A stretch of 64,000 bases of DNA from positions 248,001 through 312,000 of the forward strand of contig JABSSW010000019.1 in assembly GCA_018902385.1 (NCBI GenBank), written 5' to 3'. Positions 8,450 to 64,000 of the stretch are shown in pieces; position 1 is the first letter of the stretch; every line of letters starts with the position of its first letter. The notes under the pieces were generated by a model. That model ran no database searches. It saw nothing but the letters and a program-made list of their open reading frames with translations, and had not been told where the DNA came from. This DNA comes from Physcia stellaris (taxonomy: Eukaryota; Ascomycota; Lecanoromycetes; Caliciales; Physciaceae). The translations under genes and the position numbers were made by a program.

Positions 8450-8531
8450 TTCCAGCTCTACAACTCATATTCCGCTCGCTTGAAGGGTTTGTTGGGGAGA
8501 ATTTTCCTCAGAGACTCTGCTTATAGTCGAT

Positions 8532-11525
8532 ATGTCTTCAACCCTGGGCGCAATGCTCAGCTCCGACAATCCTGACACGGACAACGCTCGCAAAAATGCG
8601 GCACAGAAAAATGCCAATCGCAGAAGTGTGCAGCGTTCCTCTCCCCGCCCCAATGGACCACCCTCGGAGAGCAATGGAGCGCTTAGCGACACCGAGGGGT
8701 TTCCAGATGACGAGGTAGTGGGCGTTCGAGGTACGGACAGAAACAGACCTCAAGACCCAATGGCAAGAGCTGTGCCGAAGGTGGTGGACAAAGTTGGCGA
8801 GAAGGTCGCCGAGGAGTTTGAGAAGTTCTTGGAACAGTGCGTCGCGTCCTTCGGCATGAAGATATCCGATGATACTGACAGGTGTAGATTTGTTGACGAC
8901 GTTATATCTTCTGGGGCCCCTCCGTCAAGTGCCCTGGCAAGCGATAAATATTACATTGCGCAAATACACGGTCTTCGAATATACAGCCTTTCTACCCTCT
9001 ACGTCGATTTCCAACATCTTCTGTCGTTACGAGATCACACGTTAGCCAATGCAATAGCAGACGACTATTACCGGTACCTGCCTTTCCTCACCCGGGCTCT
9101 CCACAACCTTATCTCGAGATATGAGCCTCGATATTTCAAAGAGCACAGACAGCCCTCAAGCGCATCGTCTCAGACCAATGGATCCGTTGCTGGCACCGGA
9201 CCAACTTCGTCGGAAACGATGGGCGGCAAAACTACAAACCAACAGACAGATAAGCTTTTCACGCTTGCATTCTACAACCTTCCTTTGATCTCACGAGTAC
9301 GGCAATTGCGGACTGCCTCAGTTGGAAAATTGCTCTCAATCTCAGGAACAGTGACTCGGACATCGGAAGTTCGCCCTGAACTATATCTAGCTACCTTCAT
9401 TTGCGAGGGCTGCAGGACGGTCATCAACAACGTCGAGCAGACCTTTCGCTACACGGAACCTACCCAATGTCCCAATTTAGTATGTGGAAATAGACAAGGA
9501 TGGAGACTAGATATACGGCAGAGTACCTTTGTGGACTGGCAAAAGGTTCGGATTCAAGAGAACAGCTCGGAGATACCTACTGGAAGTATGCCACGAACAA
9601 TGGATGTTATCCTTCGAGGAGAAATAGTCGATCGGGCAAAAGCCGGCGAAAAATGTGTCTTCACAGGAACACTCATTGTAGTTCCAGATGTTAGCCAGCT
9701 TGGAGTCCCGGGTGTCCGCCCTGAGGCTACTCGGGACAACCGTAATGCTCCTCGAGGCGGCGACGCCGGAGGATCAGGGGTTACAGGTCTCAAGGCACTT
9801 GGTGTCCGTGATCTTACATATCGGATGGCTTTCCTATCCTGTATGGTTACGCCGGATACCTCGACTCCTGGCCAAGCTGCCAACTACCTCTCCGGCCAAG
9901 CGACCAACATTCTCGCTTCACTCAACCAGACTGCAACAATCGACCCCAATGACACAGGCGATCATGCCCAAGATGCCTACCTCCAATCCCTCACAGCTGC
10001 TGAGATCGAAGATCTCAAGCAGATGGTACACAGCGACCACATCTACTCCCGCCTCGTTAACTCGCTCGCCCCCATGGTCTACGGGCATGAGATGGTCAAG
10101 AAAGGACTCCTACTCCAGCTCATGGGCGGTGTGCACAAAACCACCCCGGAAGGTATGCAACTCCGCGGCGACCTCAACATCTGCATCGTCGGCGACCCCA
10201 GCACATCAAAATCACAATTCCTGAAATACATCTGCTCCTTCCTCCCCCGAGCAGTCTACACATCAGGCAAAGCCTCTTCGGCAGCAGGTCTGACAGCCGC
10301 GGTCGTCAGGGACGAGGAAACCGGTGAGCACACCATCGAAGCCGGCGCGCTCATGCTCGCAGACAACGGCATCTGCGCCATCGACGAGTTCGACAAGATG
10401 GACATCGCAGACCAGGTCGCCATCCACGAAGCCATGGAACAGCAAACCATCTCCATCGCCAAAGCCGGCATCCAAGCCACCCTCAACGCGCGAACATCCA
10501 TCCTCGCGGCCGCGAACCCGGTCGGGGGAAGATACAATCGCAAAACGACACTCCGAGCCAACATCAACATGTCCGCCCCAATCATGTCTCGCTTCGACCT
10601 CTTCTTCGTCATCCTGGACGAGTGCAACGAGAGCGTAGACCGCCATCTCGCAGAGCACATCGTCAACATCCACCGCTTGCGTGACGACGCCGTGCAGCCC
10701 GAGTTCACGACCGAGCAACTCCAGCGCTACATCCGCTTCGCACGCACTTTCAAGCCGGAATTCACCCCCGAGTCACGGGAGCTGCTGGTCGAGAAATACA
10801 AGGAGCTCCGCGCCGACGACGCTCAGGGTGGGATTGGACGGAACAGCTATCGCATCACGGTCCGGCAGCTGGAGAGTCTGATTCGGCTAAGCGAGGCGAT
10901 TGCGAAGGCGAACTGTGTGGATGATGTGACGCCGCAGTTTGTGCGGGAGGCTTTCAACCTGCTTCGGCAATCGATCATCAGCGTTGAGAAGGATGATGTG
11001 GAGGTTGAGGACGAGGAGGATGTAGAGCCCGCCAACGGTGATGGGAATGAAGACCGGGACGGTGACTCACCAATGGCGGACGGTGATGCGCAGCCTGATG
11101 CCGACGGGACCCCGGCTCCGGCTTCGCGGAAGACGAAGATAACGTACGATAATTATATGGCGATCTTGAATCTGCTGGTCAGGAGGGTCAATGACGACGA
11201 GCAAGCCACTGGCGAGGGAGTGGAGCATGAGGATCTGGTGGTCTGGTATCTGGAGCAGAAGGAGGAGGAGATAAACACGGAGCAGGAGATGAACGATGAG
11301 AGAAGTTTAGTAGAGAAGGTGTTGAGGAGGATGGTCAAGGTAAATCCCCATTCTAGCTAAATTGAACATGAAGATCAAGGCTAACGAGGGTAATAGGACA
11401 ACATCTTCATGCAAATACGAGGAGAAGGCCTCGTTGATGGCGACGAGGGCGCTGAGGGTAGCTCCAGGGACGCGGATAAGGTTGTCTACGTGCTGCATCC
11501 CAACTGCGCTGTGGAGGAGATGTAG
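8532..11525 (+). CDS. MCM6: DNA replication licensing factor MCM6
   Basis: Exon 1 is 8532-11339 and exon 2 is 11397-11525, with a 57-nt intron; the protein has 978 residues. The N-terminal tail is acidic/Ser-rich. It is followed by the MCM N-domain with a zinc finger (CEGC...CPNLVCG) and the MCM6-typical MPRTMDVILRGEIVDRAKAGE. The AAA+ core has Walker A GDPSTSKSQ (from residue 554), Walker B CAIDEFDKM and arginine-finger SRFDLFF. A C-terminal winged-helix region ends in VVYVLHPNCAVEEM, restored only by the splice. MCM6 is one subunit of the MCM2-7 helicase loaded at origins and activated in S phase. An Asp/Glu-rich stretch separates the core from the C-terminal domain. The subunit assignment is secure; MCM5 and MCM4 were considered and do not fit. 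Confidence 0.97.
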
Positions 11526-23653: not shown

Positions 23654-26600
23654 ATGCGCCACATTTTGCCGTTATCTATACATGATGAGACCCTTTCAGC
23701 AGCAGATGTTCTTCTTAATCTTGCGTTGTTTCCCCGCGATCATAAAATAGTCACGGGATGTCTATTACAGCTTACTGCCGTCAATGCTTCGAGTACAATA
23801 GAAATCATGAGCCATGATGCACCGCAGAATGAGACCCAGGACACGAGCGATGTGCCAGACCTATCTTCGAAACTCACCAGGGGTCTGGCAGGCCAGGAAA
23901 CGTACGATGATGAGTACCCGGTGGACCATCGAAAAGGATATTACTTTCTTGCGAAAGAACTGGATTCTGAACGGTCATCTAAATTAGGTGGAGTCCAGGT
24001 TAGTCCTCTATCTGCTTTCACGTGCAGATCAAAAGGGCTAAATTATGCACAGATATCCATGGCTTCGCAGATCGCGCAAGCGTTTGGCTTCAAGAAGGGC
24101 AGTCTCATGCTCGTCTCCAAGGTACCTTCAAATTGCTATTCCACATCTTGTTTGGCATTGTCGCCTAATCATTTCAGGTAAACGACTCTGTTTGCAATGC
24201 CTCTCACGTCGAGATCGTTTTCAGAGACGAATACCTGACTCGTGCAGACATGTGGCATCTAATTGCAACAGAATTGGCAGGTCATACGGCGTATAGAAAT
24301 ATGAAGATCTGGTCGATGCGTACAATAAAGGCTTCGGTTAAGAATGTGTACGTCAATGGGCAAAAGGTGCAGTCTGCGCTTTTCAACATGTCAACCAAAC
24401 CAATATTCCGAAGCGAGTCTGCCCGCTATGTTTTATTCATCCAGATGTCGAAAGAAATGTGGGATTTTGATGCTAGTGGGAGCGGAGAGATCATGTTCAG
24501 CAAAGCTCTCAACGGATTCCTTCCAGAGCTTTTCCAACGTTGGCAGGGCATCGACGTCAAGCATCTTGTCACAGTAGTGCTCTTTACAAGGATCGAATAC
24601 TATGATAACCAAACAGATTGCGTGGATCACGATATTAGAGAGCATCTAAGGACTCAACCTCAGGGGGCAATTCATAGTCATCACAAGGATTTCTATCGGG
24701 TCGTTGTCAGTGATATGGCCAGTGGGGAGGGAGAAAGGATACTGAGACAGTTGAAAGCCGAGTTCAAGGTATTCCTCCGTGATGTGTGCGTCTGCCGACC
24801 AACAGCAGGAAAACACTTCTCGTTTGGCTCGGGCTTTGCCACGGCATCAGCAACAGAACTGCCCGAATGGGTTATTAGAGGACATCCTTGCAGTGCTAAT
24901 CATGGCAACATTCTCGAAGCAATTAGCCTTGCTTCATCTCAGTTCTCAAGCGACTATGTCGACCGAGATCTCGTAAGAACGGGCGTTTCCATTGCAGTTA
25001 TCACGCCAGGCACTGGAGTGTTTGAGGTGGAGTACAATCAACTCCTCACAACCACAGAGAAATTGGTCGCTAATGGTATTGGAATCGATTTAATCTGTCT
25101 TTCAAGGATGCCCTTGCATTCGGTTCCCTTGTTCAAGTACACAGCATCCCAGATACATGATGGGAAATCAGCCTTACCGGCTAGAAGAGATGACCAATCT
25201 AATCAAGCAACACCAAACCCCAACGCAGACCTTAGCATAAGGAAGACTTCAGAGAATCTTCGATCCAGTCATTGCATTCATAGACATGGCCAAGCTGGGA
25301 GCTCAACGTCAATCGATCATTGGAGCTACGCCATTCCGCACTGGATAGATGTCTCGTTCTGGACATCCGCACTGGATGAAACAAAGTCAGAAGCAATTCT
25401 CTTTAAGGAACATCAAGCATCGAATAAATGGCAAGCTCGAAAAGCTTTTCGACCCAGAGTGAGGATGTACGAGCTTCAAATGTTGGGCGCTATGGAGAAT
25501 ACGATGGATCACATTGCTATTCCGTATTTACCATCTTCTTTTGCATTACCAAAACCCAATTATACAGGAACGCCTGACCAGACATTGCGTCCATTGGGAA
25601 ACGACAACTCTGAAGAAATGAGTAGATCCTCGAGTTCTCGAAGGAACAATCGCGTTAACCCAACTTGGACTCCAACCTACGCATCGAAATCCAAGTCTCC
25701 AACGAGGAACAGTGTCAGTCAACTCATGGATAGGCATGATGAAATTGTTTTTCTACAGCCGGAGCTGGGATACGTTGCAACGTGCAGGTCGGATAACCAC
25801 ATAGCCAGAGATGTAGAGCTTACCTCCTTAGCCAGTACTCAAAATTATAGACTTGCAGAGACAGTGGTAAATAGTGGATCCTTCGAAAGTAGCCAGCAAG
25901 ATGCATTCGATAAAAGGCCTGATGTCGAAACACTCACAGACACTACTAGACGAACGTCGCTGAAGAAGGCCAACGCATCTTCAGGAGCACAATCATCCAA
26001 CTCACCGCTGGCCAAACCCGCTAGATTTTCCCGCCAACTTAGCTTTGGACTTCGAGGATTTGGTATCACAACGCCTAAAGCAATTGCCAGTACAGAGCTC
26101 TTTGCAGAACATGCAAAGTCACCGTCTTTACTTGGACGCACTTCAAAGACTCAGGAAGTCTCCACTCAAGATACTGCTTCGATGGCAGAAGTTGGTCGAT
26201 TCCGGGATCAAAGTATCACAGGCTCTCGGCTGGCTCAACCATCGAATACAGAGACAACCACGCTGTCTAGACCTATTCCAATCCGTAAAGACACTGCTAT
26301 TCGTCATTCCTATGGTGCAATTGGAGAGTCACAACATGCACCACCGGCTCATCTAGGACATGAAGTGCGTCGGCACCCTGCAGAAAGGACACCATGGAGC
26401 GAAGATGAGGAAACAACGTTGACTCCCAATGCAGAACGCAACGAGGCCATGTTGAAGGCCAAGGTTCTGTCATCATGTACTGCCCTGACCTCTTGGATGA
26501 CAGTGCTAAACCCATGTAATCCTCCCAAGACGGATATCCCCACTTCAAGTCGTATGGGCCGTTGGCAACACGTATTTCCACGCCCTCTCCGTGCTTCAAA

Positions 26601-28932
26601 AATCAAATGGAAATCTCTCTGCTCCCCTGCTGCTGTGCCCATCACTACCGATGATTTTCCTAGTGCAGCTGAATTAGAGGTTGAATTCAAGCAATATTCA
26701 TACAATATAGGTCCGGTAGAGACGCATGATCTATCTGAAACCCCTTGTTCTCGTAATGAACTATTTCGAGAGATGACTGCAATCCGCCTTTCACATGGAT
26801 TCCAACTCGTCACCAGTATGGGAGTTACACGTTGCTTGCAACGACCTGCAGATCAAGAATTAAGAGTGTTTGATAAAGATCTATTTACGGACAAGGATCT
26901 TGTTGTTCACCTCTCGAAAAATAACTTGATTCATCAGTTGAAATATGTTGAGAACCGTGGGATCGAGGTCAAATGCTTTGTTCGTCCTGGAATTGCACCA
27001 TTGGCCTCTGCCATCGGCCATTCTTTACCGGTCATATACAGGCCGGCGATTCGGACAATGCTAGCTGATGAGTACAAGTCTCTCGAGATAAAATTTCATC
27101 AACAGCCTAGCGATCTTGACTGGCACAAGCTTGACTTATTTCTCTCCGGTGTTGGACAGCAACCCGCGGCGACCCTAGCAGGCGCATTGCGATTCTGGCG
27201 CGCGAGATACGTATTGATTCCTGTCGATCGACCTGCTAACAGCCGTCGGCCATTACAGTCAATGAACGAGGATAGCGAAGAAGAAATGAGGTTAGAGGGC
27301 ATACAAAGATTGACGCAAATGTGGCAGAGGTTTCGCTATGTCACTCCTGAAGAGCGTCGTTTCCAGGCCACCTTGCGCCGACGCAAGGACACAAATCCAT
27401 TAGATATCATGTATCAGACACGGAATCCGTCTGCAATTGTTGCGGCTGAGAAGGAAAACATTGGCGAAGCAGAGTCTGCAGGCAGTGCTGTGGAGCTGCT
27501 TCCTGACAGTGAGCTCTACCAACGGTCCGATCTCAATCTGGTGTCACTCGCCCAAACTATACAAAGTGACAAGGGAGTTCGTATGATAGATCGGAGATGG
27601 CATTGGAGGCTCCATTATAGCTGCTTCATCGGTTTTGAGATGACGACATGGATACTACAGAATTTTCGAGACATTGGAACCCGGGAGGAGGCAGTTGAAC
27701 TTGGCAACGAGCTGATGGACAATGGGCTTTTCCAACATGTCGAGCAACGACATAACTTTCGAGACGGCAACTTTTTTTACCAGATCGCCAGCGAATACAG
27801 AATCCCAAGGCCCGAATCAAGAAGCTGGTTTGGAACACGAAAGTCAGTGCCCGCAACACCTGTATCAGAAGCCCCAGGTAAAGATTTTCCAAAAACTCCG
27901 GGCTCACGGTCAAGCTCAAATGTTGGTGAAAATATCGAAGCGGATAACCCAAACCAAAGCAGTGACAAGCAACGGTTGGGTGTCGCCCTTAGCAAATCGC
28001 TTTTGTATGACGTGGATCATCGTAAGCGGTCATACAGGCGTGAGTTAATCACGCTGCACTACGATCGCCTGCATAATCCGGACAATTGCTATCATATAAG
28101 GATTGAATGGATGAACGTTACCTCTAAGCTGATCGAGGACGCGATAGTGTCCTGGGCGACCACGGTTGAGAGATACGGTCTTAAGCTTGTCGAAGTACCT
28201 CTTGCCGAAGCGTCTGCCGTTACCGACATGCATCCTTTCCGAGCACCCTATCTTATTCGGCTGGCCCTCCCTCCGCCGACCGAACGGCCTCAAGTTTTGT
28301 CCTATCTCGATGAAAAGTCGTTCAACCTCCATATCGACGACGACCCCCATTCGTATCAAAAGGCTATACTGAAGAAATTCCACTACGTCTTGGACTTCGA
28401 GGCAGCGCGCGACTTTCCTCCAGACGTTGACGTAGCTTACTCTTGGGGAAAACCCGATTACACCTATGCACAGTACGTCCATAAATCTGGTGTCCTTCTA
28501 GTGCAGATTACGGACGATGGCCACTTCTTAGTCCTAGCAAACAGGCTATATAACGATCGTAATGCCATACCCCGGGAGGCAATGCAACAAGTCCCAGACA
28601 GCAAGTTCCAGTCCTACCGAAACAGCGTGCCTTTGGCGTCTCCTCAGGCATCACCCTACTCTTCACCCATAGTTCGGCCGAGCAATAGCGCTCATATTGC
28701 TGGGCGTCAAGAGCAGATCTCAAGCTATAATGGGCCAGAACAACTCAAGATTGAACTTGAATCCTTTTGCCAGGACACTGGTGCATTAGAGCTTTTCTAC
28801 GATGAAACTTTGCATGGAAATACAACGCCAGGGCAACAAACACCGCACATGGAGAGCAGCATCCCAACATTGGGGCTACCGCCAAGCCTAATGCGCAAAG
28901 ATAAGCATACAAACATGAAACCCGACGTGTGA
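23654..28932 (+). CDS. IML1: IML1 (DEPDC5 orthologue), GTPase-activating subunit of SEACIT/GATOR1
   Basis: Exons 23654-23998, 24053-24121 and 24178-28932 join in frame to 1,722 residues. The N-terminal domain (SIHDETLSAADVLLNL; ASHVEIVFRDEYLTRADMW) and following SABA-like region (RYVLFIQMSKEMWDFD) match the family. A DEP domain begins about residue 1270 (DRRWHWRLHYSCFIGFEMTTWIL...). The C-terminal domain contains FRAPYLIRLALPPP and HYVLDFEAARDFPPDVDVAYSW. In yeast and animals Iml1 with Npr2/Npr3 is the GAP for Gtr1/RagA on the vacuole and shuts down TORC1 when amino acids are low. A Ser/Arg/Pro-rich, poorly conserved region between about residues 430 and 780 is probably disordered and phosphorylated. 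An additional short 5' exon cannot be excluded. Confidence 0.95.
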
Positions 28933-47335: not shown

Positions 47336-48408
47336 TCATCTCAGTTGAGATTCAAGGCTACGTTTTTGTAGTTTGATCTCAGTGGATTCCTTGACAGCTT
47401 CCACAAGAACAAGTCTTGCTGCCACAGCTGCGTCTACCGCTCGATCCATCAAGGCATCGATCGCTGCGTGGTCCGAAGCATCGCGATCGATCTCACCAAA
47501 GGTATCTCCTTTTACCCATATTTCAGTCACTTCATCCCGTGATTGGAGATAGCTTAGTACGCAAGCACCACCTAGGTTTGTATGCTCTGCCGGACAAGGA
47601 TCCATCAACATTCGAGCCGTTGCTTCTGGTTCGCCTGAATCCGCTATGGGTGTCGTTTTCTTCTTGCCTGTCGCAGGCTGGCGGACTGTAGCCGCAACGC
47701 CCCCAGTAACAAAATCCACGCAGTCAATACCCGCATCCACAATTGCGGCAGAAGCCACAGTGATACAGCCAGATAGGATCGACATCATTGCCAATCCCTT
47801 GCTCTGGCTGGGCTCACCTATATTGAGTGCACCTGTATTATCGTTCCCGCAGTCTACTTCACCCTCGAGGATGGTGATAATCACATCGACGCCGCTTTTC
47901 GGCCATCGCTCAGTGATGAGCATGCCACGCAAGGCAGTCTCAAGGTGGACGGCAAGATCACGCTCGCTAGAATCCCGCACGTAACCTCTCCGTTGTCGAG
48001 ACGCAAAAGGCGCGAATTTGATATGGGTTGAGAGAAGCAGCTGTGGGGTGAATGGTGCTGATCGCGGGAGGGGTCGCGGTCCATGGACGGTACACGTCAA
48101 TTTTAGTGAACTCGATCGGTTTGAGAGGTATTCAGAGCCTGAAGTTGTTCCTGAAGAAGGCTCAAGCTCTAGGTACGCCGAACCTGAGGCAGAGGGTGTC
48201 AAACCGGTCTTCAGGACTATGAAAGCAGCAGTTAGGTCAACTATAGAGGCAACCGCTTTTTGGGCTGTCAGTACCTACATATCTTCCTGATCTGATTTGG
48301 TGCTCGCGTCCGCAGGCGTCCAGGGTTCTGGAGACCTGTGATCGGCTGGGCGTACACTGGGGGCGTAGTGCCACTGGCAGGTCCGTTGACGCGTCTTCTG
48401 TCGGCCAT
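47336..48408 (-). CDS. MTR3: Exosome RNase PH-like core subunit MTR3
   Basis: Exons 48279-48408 and 47336-48216 (62-nt intron) give 336 residues. The N-terminal exon ends IRKI and splices to FLKTGLTPSASGSAYLELE, the usual MTR3 beginning (R.....K.G....A.GSAY.E). RNase PH-fold stretches follow: KLTCTVHGPRPLPRSAPFTP, then KFAPFASRQRRGYVRDSSERDL and SILSGCITVASAAIVDAGIDC. MTR3 is one of six catalytically inactive RNase PH-type subunits forming the ring of the RNA exosome in nucleus and cytoplasm. The protein is longer than yeast Mtr3 (about 250), with an insert around EGEVDCGNDNTGALN and a longer C-terminal helix. Rrp41 and Rrp46 were considered; the start and the overall spacing fit MTR3 best. 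Confidence 0.85.
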
Positions 48409-50281
48409 GATATCAATAATGAGCCACGACAGATCTTCAAGCTTCTTCCCGTTCAAACATGAACATTCGTATTTGAGCGTTGGTTGTGGTGTATTTTACA
48501 TTAGCGGCTACTTTACGCATTTTAGCTTGTTATAAGATACCTCTTCAATCCCATTAGGTAGTTAGGTAGACATGCCCGCGAGGCCAGTCATAAATCTCAA
48601 ATCTTCCATCAACTAGGTAGGATCGCACTACTTCGTTTGCTCCTTGCAACAGTATCGCCATTCGTCGTCCCCTGACATTGAGCCACCGCTTATACTCTCA
48701 GATTCCCGTAAGTGAATATGCTCAAGTCTAACCACGTTTCGTCACACTTTACATGAAGAAATCAACCTTACAAGTTCTGGCGACGCCTATGAGCCATTGA
48801 ACAACATGCACTACCATCTGATCAGCGTAGAAACACAGTCTCAATAGATGAGACCCAATTCGATTCCTGCCCGAAAAGGCTGTCTAAAGATCTAGCACTA
48901 ACTACAATTCATAGATACAACGGGGTATTAAGTCCCCATTCGTGAAGGCCACCTTTGGGTAATACAAACCTTTCCTCCCCGTGTATGCTCCTATTCGCCC
49001 TCAATATCACGCTTCTTTAACATTGCGCGATTCTTGATGATGAGAAATTGTTTTTCAGTTCTGCTACTGAACTATCATGTGGATTAACATTACCAAACTT
49101 ACCAAATCTCTGAAATGGATATCGTCAAATTCTGGGTAGTCTAGATAGATTTGAAAACGGATTTTGCTGACTGCAGAACGATCCAGGTCCACCTTGGCAT
49201 TTAATTTTACTTCGGTTTACAAGGTAAGCATATCTACATGTCCTTTGCCCGCATGATGATGAAAGAAGTCAATCCATTCCCTGAAATCCTTCCCTACCAA
49301 GTCACCCTCCCACACCGGACTGGCTCCTACCAGCTAGGATGATTGGTGGTGGAGTTAGGCTGCCCCATACGTTGCATCGCGCTTCGTTATGGAGTGGACT
49401 TTCATGCTGACTTTCGAGCCCAGAGTTTGTGTTTGGTCGTCTTGGCCATCGTAGACTTGGGGCCGGTAGGAGAGACCTGATTAACTCGGCTTTTCTGACA
49501 TTGCGTCAATGTTTCTGAAGCTCACAAGCAGGCTCACTGGACTCGTTTTGCTAACCCTTTGGGAGAATCTAGATTTTCGGCTCCGAATATCCCATAGGTC
49601 TTTCAGGGCCTAATGTCTGTAGGGATCAGTCTGGCAGGTCATAAAAGCATAGCTTGGGCCGAAAGACAGAGTTCGGGCGGCTGCTTTCCTTTACAGTCGA
49701 ATCATCAACACGGTGAGTAGGAGAGCAGGATCTGTAGCGCGATTGGATCAGAGCCCGCTTGCAGAAGGCCTTGAAAGGAAGGATCAATGTCAAATAGTCT
49801 TTCTCATATACAAAGTAGAGGCGTTCGTTGCCTGACAATAGTCTGCATTGCACTCGACTGCAAAAGCCTCAGTGATCTATATCGATGGCAACATGCCAAA
49901 TAAGATGGGTTGACGCTGGATTTTGGTTGGGCCGGATTTTGATGCCAAGACGAGAAACGCAGGGGTTGCCCACTAGCGTCGGTCAGCGATTCCTGTCCAC
50001 TTCTCCAGAGACTCCCGTTGTCTTCACTTTCGACAATAATTCAACCGCGCTCTACTCCCCCAACACCTGTGAAATCGACTGTGCGAACATAATGCAGCTT
50101 GCCCTAAGATCAACCGCGTCCATATAACGTCCACAAGCCTGTGAACAACAAGAACATCCCCGCCTACTCTGTCCCATCTTTCGCCCTCGAGGCCCCATTT
50201 TTCATCGCTACAAAGTGGAACGGCAGCTGGATGCATTGGCGTCAGTCTTGAAGACGCAGTTTAGGCAGTGGTGCCGGGGAG
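48409..50281. other. Long gap between MTR3 and ANP1
   Basis: About 1.9 kb on the 5' side of both genes. No frame above 80 codons with any feature; no tRNA or rRNA recognised. Probably regulatory or non-coding. Confidence 0.45.
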
Positions 50282-58867: not shown

Positions 58868-61590
58868 TCAGTCATCATCCAGATCAACATCCAGCGCGTC
58901 AGGATTGACAGGTACAGCAGGCTGCTGCCGTGACTGCACGTTGCCGCCTTCGAGCCCATTGCTAGCTGCAACAAATCCAACAGGTGCTCGAGCTTGACGT
59001 TCCAGAGCTGCCATGGCGTCAGCTTGTTTCACGTCTTCGACCATTTCTTCCTCATCCTGGCCTTCATTTGGTTGCTGCTGACTTCGCGCAAGTGCTTGAG
59101 ATGCGATGAAGTTGACGTCGGTGCTGATGGCATGTTAGTCTTCGTGTCAGAACACAAACGCAGTAAATCACAAGACTCACTTGTATTGGGCTTGAACACT
59201 TCGCTTGATGCGCAACATTTCTTTAAAGGTGTCTTCGTTGCCATGCTGCACCTCGAAGCTTTCCCATTTCGACCAGAAAGACGGCGTTGTCCTTGGGTCG
59301 CAAAATTGAGAGGCATGTCCATAAATGACCCGGGCCCTATCGATTTCTCCCAATCGTCTCTCCATCTCAGAAAACTTCAGACACATGTCTCGAGCTTCCT
59401 TGTCAGGCAACGCTGCTATAGCTCTCTCGTAGATGGGCCGTGTGGATGTCAGTCCAAAATTGGCCGCCGATTTGGCAATGTAGAAATTGAACATTTCGAA
59501 TCGATCCTCATCAGACACTGCCCGGGTGGCTCGTTCATAGATTCGCATTGCATGCCTTGCCAATCCGCGCTCCTCCTCCAGACTGCCATACATGAGATAG
59601 AGCACTTTGGCGAACTTTGGTGGGCATCCTTCGACGGCCTGTTCGAATAAATCACGAAGCCTCTCTACACTGATTTGTCGATCCACCGCTTTCGTCAAGT
59701 ACAGATTCCACAACTCGAATGCCACAGGGTAGTTGAATAGGTCAAGACCTCGCTCATAAATCTTAAACGACTCCTCGAAATACTTGTTTTCCTCAAGTAG
59801 TTTGGCATAATTAGCAACGGTCTGGGGCGTAGCTATTCGAAGCTCAAATATCCGCTCGTAGACCTTCCTTGTTTCCTCGAGATTACTGACACTCTCCACC
59901 AGGTCAACATAGAAGCTCCAAAGTTTCCAACTCTTGTGAACACGCTGCTGTGGCGACAACGTCTCATCAAAGTAATCGACCGTAGATCGCTTCGGCGCTT
60001 GCGTTGCCTTCGCCATGATATCAACAGCTCTATCGAGGTCTTCGTTGCGTAGCTCCATTTCCGCCCATCCACACCAAGTTTCTGCAAGTTCTGCCACCGA
60101 CTTAAACGGTACTTTGACAGCCTTTTCCAGAATGACTCGAGCATTACGCAAATCACCTCCTTCTTCGTAGAACCTAGCGTAGTTGAGCCAGAGTTCATGG
60201 AATTTGCCGACTGCTTTCCTAGGTTGTACGGCAGCGATGGCATCAGTGTACGTTTGCACAACTTCAAGCTTATTGTCGCCCCATAGAGCTACTCTTTTTT
60301 CCCATTCTATTACATTATTCGGGTTTTGACGTAGAAGCACGTCATTTACCAAAAACGGCCGTCGGTCCATCAACTGCTCAAACCGCATCATTCGGATGTC
60401 GAGATCGAAATCGGCGTCCTCATTCATCTTTCCTTTTTCCGAGCGAATGGCTGCTGCATCCATGAGTGTGCCGATTATGGACTCTTCGAATTCTGCGTAG
60501 GCATCAAAAACCATGGTAAAGTCTCTCACCGTCATGACAGACGTTATGCCTTCCTCGAAGATATCTCGAGCTCTTTCGAAATTGCCCTTGGTAATCCAAT
60601 AAGTTGCGAGGCCGGCCCATAATTTCCCTCTCTGGTCTGCAAAACGATCGATGCCACTCCGCACAATGTTTTCCACGTCGATGCCAACATTGTCTGCGGT
60701 ATCTACCTCTCGTGCTCGCTCCACAAGTAGGTCCACCATCTCGGACCATAGCTGAAAGTCACTCTTTCCCTGTTTACTCCTGAATCTCGGATTGTTGAGT
60801 ATGTCCATATACTTCTTGACCGCCTCAGTGGACTGGCCCATTTCCACCAATAGTGAGATATAATCCTCCATATCTTCGGGATGTATTTGCATATATCTTC
60901 TCCATATCTTCATCCCAGTCTCGCCCGAGGCGGAACTGGCGAACGGCCGGAAACGAGCCCAGATTCGGTTGTGTTGAGTGAGGGGTAAGGCACGAAGGGC
61001 TCTATCAAAAGTTCGACGTGTGTGTGTTATAAGCGGCTGCTGCATAAGGAAGGAAAGGTACATTTCCCAGATTTTCGGCATTTTATTGAGTAAAATCAAC
61101 GCTCGCTCGAACAAAGCGTTGACTTTGGCGTATTCTACCGAGTAGATGGCAGGGTTCATGTTTCGCAAGTGCTTGGTGCGAAGTTCAAGATACTATATAC
61201 CAATTAGATCCCCTTTGATCGTGAAACGAGTCAGCGAAGCTACCATTTTCCAGATTTTATATGATCGAGGGAGATGCGTGCATGCACGTTCCATCACCTA
61301 GAACAAAATGTGAGATTCACAGCTTCCTAGGCAGATGCGACAATGTACACACGAAAGCTTGCTCGAGCAAGGTGCCATGTTGATGTTTATGGTCAATATA
61401 ACTAAGCCATGGTTTGATGCTAGCCGGATCACGTAGGATGTCCTGCTCATAAACGACGTCGTCTGCGGACTGTGATCTAATCAGTAAATTGGTGCGATTT
61501 CGGTCTCCATACGCAACTCACGATAAGATAGAGGCTCATGTCCGGCTTTGCATGCAGTGATTTGGATGTGGACTTTGCGGAAGTAGCCAT
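58868..61590 (-). CDS. SYF1: Pre-mRNA-splicing factor SYF1 (XAB2 orthologue)
   Basis: Five exons (61522-61590, 61353-61469, 61244-61297, 59181-61192, 58868-59123) sum in frame to 835 residues. Almost the whole protein is HAT (half-a-TPR) repeats, for example FERALILLNKMPKIWEMYLSF, TFDRALRALPLTQHNRIWARF, IYERGLDLFNYPVAFELWNLY and IYGHASQFCDPRTTPSFWSKW. The short 54-nt exon restores VMERACTHLPRSYKIWKMYL. SYF1 is a scaffold of the Prp19-associated NineTeen complex in the spliceosome and in animals also acts in transcription-coupled repair. The C-terminal exon ends in an acidic ALDVDLDDD. The gene is divergent from VMA8 with a 450-bp shared promoter. Confidence 0.96.
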
Positions 61591-62040: not shown

Positions 62041-63297
62041 ATGTCTGGCGGCGGCGTAGGGACTCACCAGATATCGCTGATTCAAAGAAGAGTATCTAAT
62101 TTAGAAGTGCAGGACAGAGAGCCAGTTTTCCCCACCCGACAGTCGCTGGGTGCTATGAAAAGCAAGCTGAAGGGCGCCGAGACAGGACATAGTCTATTGA
62201 AGAGGAAAAGTGAGGCCTTGACGAAGTAAGCTATGCAACGCATGTTTCCAACAACTGCTAATGGTCGTCAAATAGACGCTTCCGAGGTACTCATGATCTG
62301 ATGCTAATAGGATGAGATACTGAACCAATCAGAAATTACCAAACGAATCGATGAAGCCAAGCGCAAAATGGGCCGGGTGATGCAAATAGCAGCGTTCTCT
62401 TTGGCCGAGGTGACCTATGCTGTGGGTGGCGACATTGGTTATCAAATACAGGAGTCGGCCAAAAATGCTCGCTTCCGGGTCAGGACCAAACAAGAAAACG
62501 TATCAGGCGTATTCTTACCTGCCTTCGAAAGCTACACCAAGGACGAGAACAACGACTTCGGCTTAACCGGTTTAGGCAAAGGAGGTCAACAGGTTCAGCG
62601 CTGCAGAGAAACTTACTCAAGAGCAGTGGAGACATTGGTGGAGCTGGCGAGTTTACAGGTCTGCAACCTCGTTCTCTTCCAATGTCCATGATTGCTGAGC
62701 TAGTTTCAGACAGCTTTTGTAATTTTAGATGAAGTAATCAAGGTGGTAAACAGAAGAGGTAAGCCCAGCGTACAGTCTCCCTTGCTGACGCAAACTAAAT
62801 CAATTACACAGTTAATGCCATGTGAGTTGCACGAGAACCCAACAAATGTAGTGGCTTTGCTAAACACAAATTTTTCGTTCCTCGAAGTGAGCACGTAAGT
62901 GCTGCTAGCAACGAGAAAATTTGGATTCCCCATTGACTGACATGTGTAGGTCATCATACCTCGAACGGAGAATACCATTAAGTGTATGTTTGAGCGCTCT
63001 TTTAACCAGCACACATATGCTAATAGCGAGACAGACATTAACTCGGAGCTGGACGAACTTGATCGGGAGGAGTTTTATCGGTTGAAAAAGGTGGAACTGG
63101 TTGAGTTCGCAACGGATCAGATCATTGGCTAACAGTGTGTCTTTCAGGTCAAAAACAACAAACAGCGAGACAATGAGATCGCGGAAAAGGCCGAAGCGGA
63201 AAAAGGCAAGAGACGGGACAGTGACAAGGAGAACGAAGCTGGACCGGAGGCCAAGGATGTCCTGGGTGAGCAAGAGGACCAGGATGTAATTTTCTAG
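62041..63297 (+). CDS. VMA8: V-type H+-ATPase subunit D (VMA8), nine exons including three microexons
   Basis: Exons 62041-62225, 62276-62286, 62333-62658, 62710-62758, 62812-62821, 62888-62894, 62950-62983, 63035-63090 and 63148-63297 total 828 nt, giving 275 residues. Every junction has GT and AG, and the chain restores the very conserved family text: LTKRFREITKRIDEAKRKMG, then VVNRRVNAIEHVIIPRTENT, IKYINSELDELDREEFYRL and KKVKNNKQRD. Subunit D is the central rotor shaft of the V1 sector and couples ATP hydrolysis to proton pumping into the vacuole. The Lys/Glu-rich C-terminal about 45 residues are typical of fungal forms. What is exceptional is the exon size: 11, 10 and 7 nt, with 34-, 49- and 56-nt exons beside them, inside a gene of only 1.26 kb. 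Confidence 0.95.
62276..62286 (+). other. VMA8 microexon, 11 nt
   Basis: ACGCTTCCGAG between introns 62226-62275 (50 nt) and 62287-62332 (46 nt). With flanking bases it encodes K-R-F-R-E, the invariant start of RFREITKRID. Confidence 0.9.
62812..62821 (+). other. VMA8 microexon, 10 nt
   Basis: TTAATGCCAT between introns 62759-62811 and 62822-62887. It supplies V-N-A and the first two bases of I in RRVNAIEH. Confidence 0.88.
62888..62894 (+). other. VMA8 microexon, 7 nt
   Basis: TGAGCAC, preceded by GAAG and followed by GTAAGT. It completes I and encodes E-H before VIIPRT. Without it the frame breaks and the conserved EH pair is lost. Confidence 0.85.
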
Positions 63298-63492: not shown

Positions 63493-64000
63493 TCATTGCC
63501 GTTGGTATACAACTTTCATGATCTTGCCCTCGTCTCCAAGTGCCATGCCGGCCGTCCTTTCTTTCGCGCTGATGGCACCAGCTTCTGCTTCGTATTCAAC
63601 GAACGCTATTCCCGTCCTTCCAGGCACGAGTCGAACCTCCCTAAATCCTTCGAATCTGCCGAATATTGATGTGAGACTGTCGACATCGTAATTGTCTGGT
63701 AGATTCTGCACGAAGAGGATCTTGTTCGGCGGTAGGTACTCTTCCGGCACGACGGCACCTGCTGCTGGGTTCGAGGATTTGAGGCCCGCTCCACGTGAGG
63801 CTTTGACGGGTCTGGCGGCACCAGCGTCTGGTGCGGCCACTGCTGCCGACCTCTTCAGCTTCTTCTGGATCTCGGCTGCTTCTGCAGCTTGCTTTCGCTC
63901 TAGAATCACTCAAATTTTAACGACGTTCGCCGAGTGCTCGACTTAACTCCATACCTTTTTCGGCCAGTCTTCTCCGCTTGTGAGATTCCAGCTCTTCCGA
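63493..64000 (-). CDS. U1A/U2B''-type snRNP RRM protein, 3' part (gene continues beyond the right edge)
   Basis: The last exon (63493-63899) and the end of the previous exon (63955 to beyond 64000) splice across a 55-nt intron to ...HKRRRLAEKERKQAAEAAE. A Lys/Ala-rich linker is followed by an RRM: NKILFVQNLPDNYDVDSLTS (RNP2 ILFVQNL) and GIAFVEYEAE (RNP1 region), ending KIMKVVYQRQ. This is the C-terminal, second RRM of the U1A/U2B'' family (yeast Mud1/Msl1), which binds snRNA hairpins in U1 or U2 snRNP. Which of the two it is depends on the first RRM, outside the window. It is convergent with VMA8, with about 195 bp between stop codons. Confidence 0.85.

Follow-up and report, generated by a model that had tools for sequence, protein, structure and literature searches.

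Three predicted microexons of 11, 10 and 7 nt in a VMA8 gene most likely split into ten coding exons

Results

VMA8 and the genes beside it

The DNA analysed here is a stretch of 64,000 nucleotides from Physcia stellaris, referred to below as the window. Positions 62041-63297 of its forward strand hold VMA8, the gene for subunit D of the V-ATPase. An earlier note, made from the sequence alone, had named the gene so, and the profiles leave this identity standing: the predicted protein scores 234.9 bits against the Pfam profile PF01813 (cut-off 25.7) and 258.1 bits against TIGR00309 (cut-off 72.25). Its best solved chain, with 359.3 bits, is 3j9t_M, a V-type proton ATPase subunit D which we take to be Vma8 of baker's yeast (the yeast chain in what follows). 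This alignment is colinear over the full length (query residues 4-256), and residues 4-216 of the query are aligned without a gap, crossing all three of the microexons described below. In all, 12 distinct solved sequences match at an E value of 0.001 or better. Identity to the two chains aligned, the yeast chain and 6vq6_H, is 74% and 52%; 6vq6_H is presumably the subunit D chain of a mammal, the rat (the mammalian chain).

Directly upstream, in divergent orientation, the pre-mRNA splicing factor gene SYF1 occupies 59180-61590 on the reverse strand, with its start at 61590 and three introns, each of 51-55 nt, close to the 5′ end (at 61470-61521, 61298-61352 and 61193-61243). On the other side, at 63496-63909 of the reverse strand, lies a gene for an RRM protein akin to U2B''/U1A, the N-terminal part of which seemingly extends toward or beyond the end of the window. 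VMA8 thus sits between two likely spliceosomal-protein genes. Compared with four other genes, VMA8 is intron-dense: it holds nine introns in 771 coding bases, beside the three found in SYF1, and MCM6, NBP35 and ARC1 appear as uninterrupted reading frames with predicted ends.

Exons, introns and splice signals

The earlier note had described nine exons. All nine, with their GT/AG boundaries and with the three microexons, are found letter for letter at 62041-63297, yet VMA8 most likely has ten coding exons, because 62056-62112 is likely an intron within what had been taken as exon 1. The ten exons measure 15, 113, 11, 326, 49, 10, 7, 34, 56 and 150 nt, that is, 771 coding bases or 257 codons with the stop, for a protein of 256 residues; the nine introns are 46-66 nt long, and introns 2-7 have the phases 2, 1, 0, 1, 2 and 0. 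The coding part of exon 1 (62041-62055, 15 nt) starts at the ATG and reads MSGGG, and the 5′ UTR is presumably continuous with it. Exons 2 (62113-62225, 113 nt), 4 (62333-62658, 326 nt), 5 (62710-62758, 49 nt) and 8 (62950-62983, 34 nt) are drawn from both the sequence and the spliced alignments. The microexons are exon 3 (62276-62286, 11 nt), with RFR and parts of the neighbouring K and E codons; exon 6 (62812-62821, 10 nt), with NA and parts of a V and an I codon; and exon 7 (62888-62894, 7 nt), with the final base of that I codon followed by EH. Each of the three is bounded by AG and GT, and both length and flanking sites are those of a microexon, taken here as an internal exon no longer than about 30 nt that lies between GT-AG introns. 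Exon 10 (63148-63297) runs for 150 nt to the stop codon and ends in DVIF, as does 3j9t_M.

Donors were scored with nucleotide frequencies published for Fusarium (PMC5677156), so that the consensus is that of Fusarium, and were ranked as percentiles among 6,884 GT sites. Introns 2, 5, 6, 7 and 8 have donors between the 97.8th and the 99.8th percentile; those of introns 1, 3, 4 and 9 are weaker (71.8th, 87.9th, 90.1th and 52.3rd). The donors beside the microexons, in introns 2, 3, 5, 6 and 7, range from the 87.9th to the 99.8th percentile. A CTRAY branch site is present in seven of the nine introns. Around the 11-nt exon, intron 2 (62226-62275, 50 nt) combines a donor at the 97.8th percentile with CTAAT, and intron 3 (62287-62332, 46 nt) has the donor GTACTC and a CTAAT 25 nt from its 3′ splice site. 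Intron 4 (62659-62709, 51 nt) is one of the two without CTRAY and has CTGAG 11 nt from its 3′ splice site. In the second group, intron 5 (62759-62811, 53 nt; 99.6th percentile) and intron 7 (62895-62949, 55 nt; 99.8th) both contain CTGAC, and intron 6 (62822-62887, 66 nt; 97.8th), the other without CTRAY, has CTAAA only. Intron 8 (62984-63034, 51 nt) is in frame and free of stops, with a donor at the 98.9th percentile and CTAAT. In Drosophila, very short exons are reported to accompany higher splice-site information (PMC1431713). The 10- and 7-nt exons, with strong sites on either side, agree with this finding, although nine introns of a single gene yield no general rule. The earlier note had considered specific helper signals; as far as the core splice sites go, there is no need to assume any for the VMA8 microexons.

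The boundaries of intron 9 are the least certain. Alignment to the yeast chain places it at 63100-63147 and alignment to the mammalian chain at 63091-63177, and exon 9 (63035-63090, 56 nt) accordingly ends at 63099 in the former and at 63090 in the latter. We favour 63091 on donor strength: it stands at the 52.3rd percentile, and 63100, which makes a very poor donor, at the 8.3rd. The preferred intron, 63091-63147, is 57 nt long and has the donor GTGGAA and a CTAAC 15 nt from its 3′ splice site.

A probable in-frame intron near the start codon

The proposed intron 1 (62056-62112) is 57 nt long, in frame and without a stop; it starts with GT, ends with CAG and carries CTAAT with its A 13 nt before the end. 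Its removal joins MSGGG to DREPVFPTR. The same arrangement is seen in two homologous chains, where SG at residues 2-3 is followed directly by NREQVFPTR or by KDRIEIFPSR. Furthermore, when the insert is left out the bit score rises for 11 of the 12 PDB sequences and is unchanged for the twelfth, although the largest gain, for the yeast chain, is only 3.4 bits. Six reading frames of the window that run without interruption, 14,436 nt in total, contain not one in-frame look-alike of this intron, for a pattern that was set post hoc. Taken together, these observations make 62056-62112 a likely in-frame intron inside the first exon of the earlier note.

The rival reading is that the nine-exon chain of 276 codons is the main mRNA and that 62056-62112 is coding, giving the protein an N-terminal insert of 19 residues. 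We regard this as quite unlikely and rejected it as the main form on the homologous N-termini, the bit scores and the look-alike search, to which the well-placed CTAAT can be added. Yet the stretch is open in frame, its donor GTAGGG is weak, and the local spliced aligner placed no intron here, its paths beginning at 62113 and 62110. For these reasons the form of 275 residues may still occur. The chain of 276 codons is open in the sequence as had been claimed (275 residues and a stop), but the likely form is the one with intron 1 removed.

Support for the three microexons

We used a protein-to-DNA aligner that charges a flat cost for each GT-AG intron and ignores splice-site strength. Starting from 3j9t_M and from 6vq6_H, it recovered all three microexons with the boundaries given in the earlier note, which had expected protein-level gene finders to miss them; a simple protein-guided aligner thus found three out of three. 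When the 11-, 10- or 7-nt exon was forbidden, the score fell by 73, 28 and 29, respectively, with the yeast chain and by 51, 28 and 29 with the mammalian chain. With GC and AT donors also allowed, the losses were 34, 18 and 16 (yeast) and 23, 18 and 16 (mammalian). Dinucleotide shuffling led to the same picture: with the yeast chain as query, none of 1000 shuffles of 62228-62330 reached the observed score of 784 (maximum 777), nor did any of 1000 shuffles of 62761-62947 (maximum 778).

Could an mRNA do without the microexons altogether? Once all three are forbidden, the best path of the aligner splices 62770 to 62949 (NRRGKPS-VIIP) and 62210 to 62332, in each case donor to acceptor. These joins drop RVNAIEH and the residues around RFR, and the score goes from 784 to 682 for the yeast chain and from 525 to 445 for the mammalian chain. 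Given the fall in score and the conserved residues lost, this structure was rejected, and we consider it extremely improbable.

The predicted chain was also compared with every other solution between the same outer splice sites. In the tract 62226-62332, with an internal exon of 1-39 nt and both introns of at least 30 nt, a single in-frame internal exon exists, the 11-mer, which gives KRFRE. In the tract 62759-62949 there are three solutions with one exon, two of them with a stop and none giving VNAIEH, and ten in-frame chains with two exons, two of which are free of stops; VNAIEH results only from the combination of the 10- and 7-nt exons. The chain, its frame, its homology and its uniqueness are thus direct observations. 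RFR and VNAIEH are identical across three aligned subunit D proteins, and the split codons that flank RFR vary (K/K/L and E/D/Q). The statement that the microexons supply conserved residues holds, in these three proteins, for VNAIEH, for RFR and for the I that follows, but RFREI is not invariant as a whole.

As the earlier note had it, the microexons are needed for the frame: a premature stop arises when any one of them is skipped, when the 10- and 7-nt exons are skipped as a pair and when all three are absent. Retaining any of introns 2-7 or 9 (seven out of nine) has the same effect, and the frame stays open when intron 1 or intron 8 is retained. Retention of intron 8 would yield a protein of 273 residues with an insert of 17 codons. 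On this sequence-based evidence the three microexons look real and appear to be needed both for the frame and for conserved residues.

Two other classes of arrangement were rejected. In a stwintron, one intron interrupts a splice signal of another and no exon separates the two; such an arrangement, or a recursive one, was rejected because the 7-11 coding nucleotides between neighbouring introns must stay for the frame and the conserved residues. Recently copied introns of the introner type were rejected within the 64-kb window by a search for intron similarity: the nine introns share only matches of 10 nt (E 0.013-0.016), and elsewhere in the window no match had an E value below 0.13. Searches for relatives by which to date the introns, in collections of prokaryotes, viruses and plasmids, gave no match.

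Discussion

Proposed removal of crowded introns

We consider it highly probable that VMA8 is a gene of ten exons whose nine short spliceosomal introns are intron-defined and removed sequentially, with constitutive inclusion of the microexons. In the predicted chain the introns would form two clusters so tight that just 11, 10 and 7 coding bases separate them. Each short intron would be recognised as a unit through its branch site and the 5′ and 3′ splice sites that bound it. As a spacing of 7-11 nt hardly admits two spliceosomes at once, the introns that flank a microexon would leave in turn and not simultaneously, and with the first intron out the microexon would become part of a longer exon. 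Since skipping any microexon breaks the frame, inclusion would be constitutive. That the RNA is spliced along the predicted chain, in this order and with all microexons included, is what we infer from the DNA. For fungi, recognition of splice sites has been inferred to run mostly across the intron (PMC2397502), and for plants a consecutive removal of the introns flanking a microexon has been proposed from read data (PMC8831610). Of the two modes proposed in the earlier note, intron definition is likely here, given the introns of 46-66 nt and the report on fungi (PMC2397502), whereas recursive splicing is not needed. To rule out exon definition for exons this small, as the earlier note did, goes too far, since it is reported for the 4-nt exon of MPC1 (PMC9929638).

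On a different reading, a VMA8 microexon would be an alternatively spliced regulatory switch: transcripts with skipping or retention would be subject to mRNA decay, and the level of VMA8 would be adjusted in this way. The premature stops produced by skipping or retention around the microexons and the just moderate donor after the 11-nt exon are what such a switch could use, and a fungal microexon switch has been published in another form, that of Trichoderma Xlr2 (PMC11121469). However, the invariance of RFR and VNAIEH in the three aligned proteins and the strong donors that flank the 10- and 7-nt exons speak against it, and we judge it unlikely. A more far-reaching version is that the intron clusters of VMA8 are long-standing and retained for their function, with a fixed order of removal around the 10- and 7-nt exons that would set the level of subunit D by yielding either productive mRNA or a premature stop. 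We think this very unlikely; if true, a block of microexons in a housekeeping gene would act as a sensor of splicing capacity.

VMA8 among known microexons

VMA8 is a clean and well-supported new example of exons of a size that has been described before in fungi, in plants and in animals. Seven nucleotides had been described as near the lower limit of what spliceosomes can define. Published exons are smaller: 1 nt in plants (PMC8831610), 4 nt in humans (PMC9929638), and 5 and 6 bp in basidiomycetes (PMC9142197, PMC1184071), and the known lower limit of exon size is unchanged by VMA8. Nor are three microexons in one gene exceptional, as had been suggested, since bglA of Rhodotorula minuta is reported to have ten exons of less than 30 bp (PMC9142197).

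This bglA is, like VMA8, a fungal gene with many short introns and several microexons, and in basidiomycete yeasts its minimum exon is given as 5 bp in Sirobasidium magnum and 6 bp in R. minuta (PMC9142197). It differs in that it encodes a cell-bound beta-glycosidase in Basidiomycota (PMC9142197), whereas VMA8 is a housekeeping gene of an ascomycete. Short introns and tiny exons are also shared with the P450 genes of Phanerochaete chrysosporium, where the shortest reported exon has 6 bp and 41 genes contain exons no longer than 29 bp (PMC1184071), but these were described in a genome-wide survey of structure in a large basidiomycete multigene family (PMC1184071). In plants, small microexons of 1-15 nt, for example in APC11 and VPS55, are said to be often absent from annotation, and one rice transcript has adjacent microexons of 5 and 12 nt (PMC8831610); unlike those of VMA8, which are predicted from sequence, they lie between plant introns and have RNA-seq and RT-PCR support (PMC8831610). 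The human MPC1 exon of 4 nt resembles the VMA8 microexons in being constitutive, which in VMA8 would be the case by inference, and in having a length that is not a multiple of three; its long flanking introns and reported exon definition (PMC9929638) set it apart from VMA8 with its introns of 46-66 nt.

Xlr2 of Trichoderma likewise has a microexon in a filamentous ascomycete, but there it is a regulated switch in a transcription factor (PMC11121469). Where that paper introduces the switch, it calls functional microexons previously undescribed in filamentous fungi (PMC11121469). For S. pombe, a 12-nt exon is reported, and vma8 is mentioned as using an alternative 5′ splice site (PMC5728500). 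No report of microexons in VMA8 was found among the literature matches listed on the topic. The interest of the gene lies in a trio of exons, 7-11 nt long, anchored by homology and apparently constitutive, within a housekeeping gene of a filamentous ascomycete; our searches brought up few reports of microexons from such fungi. VMA8 should be useful as a test case for gene finders and for microexon-aware read mapping, and as a compact substrate for studying the order in which crowded introns are removed.

Other features of the window

SYF1 scores 1258.8 bits against 9l5r_I among solved chains, followed by 5mqf_M (774) and 9esh_X (759.9). MTR3 (47339-48274) reaches 247.3 bits against 8pel_F and at most 31.1 against any other solved chain. 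Papers that mention the entries 8PEL and 9L5R study Chaetomium thermophilum (PMC11958768, PMC12375074), and the two matches fit a filamentous ascomycete better than a basidiomycete. Two long genes lie on the forward strand in one reading frame each: MCM6 at 8484-11360 (958 codons, uninterrupted) and a gene for an IML1/DEPDC5-like protein at 24169-28932 (1587 codons). The sole match in the window at the Rfam gathering threshold is a box C/D snoRNA of the type snR61/Z1/Z11 at 49032-49116 of the forward strand, with 62 bits.
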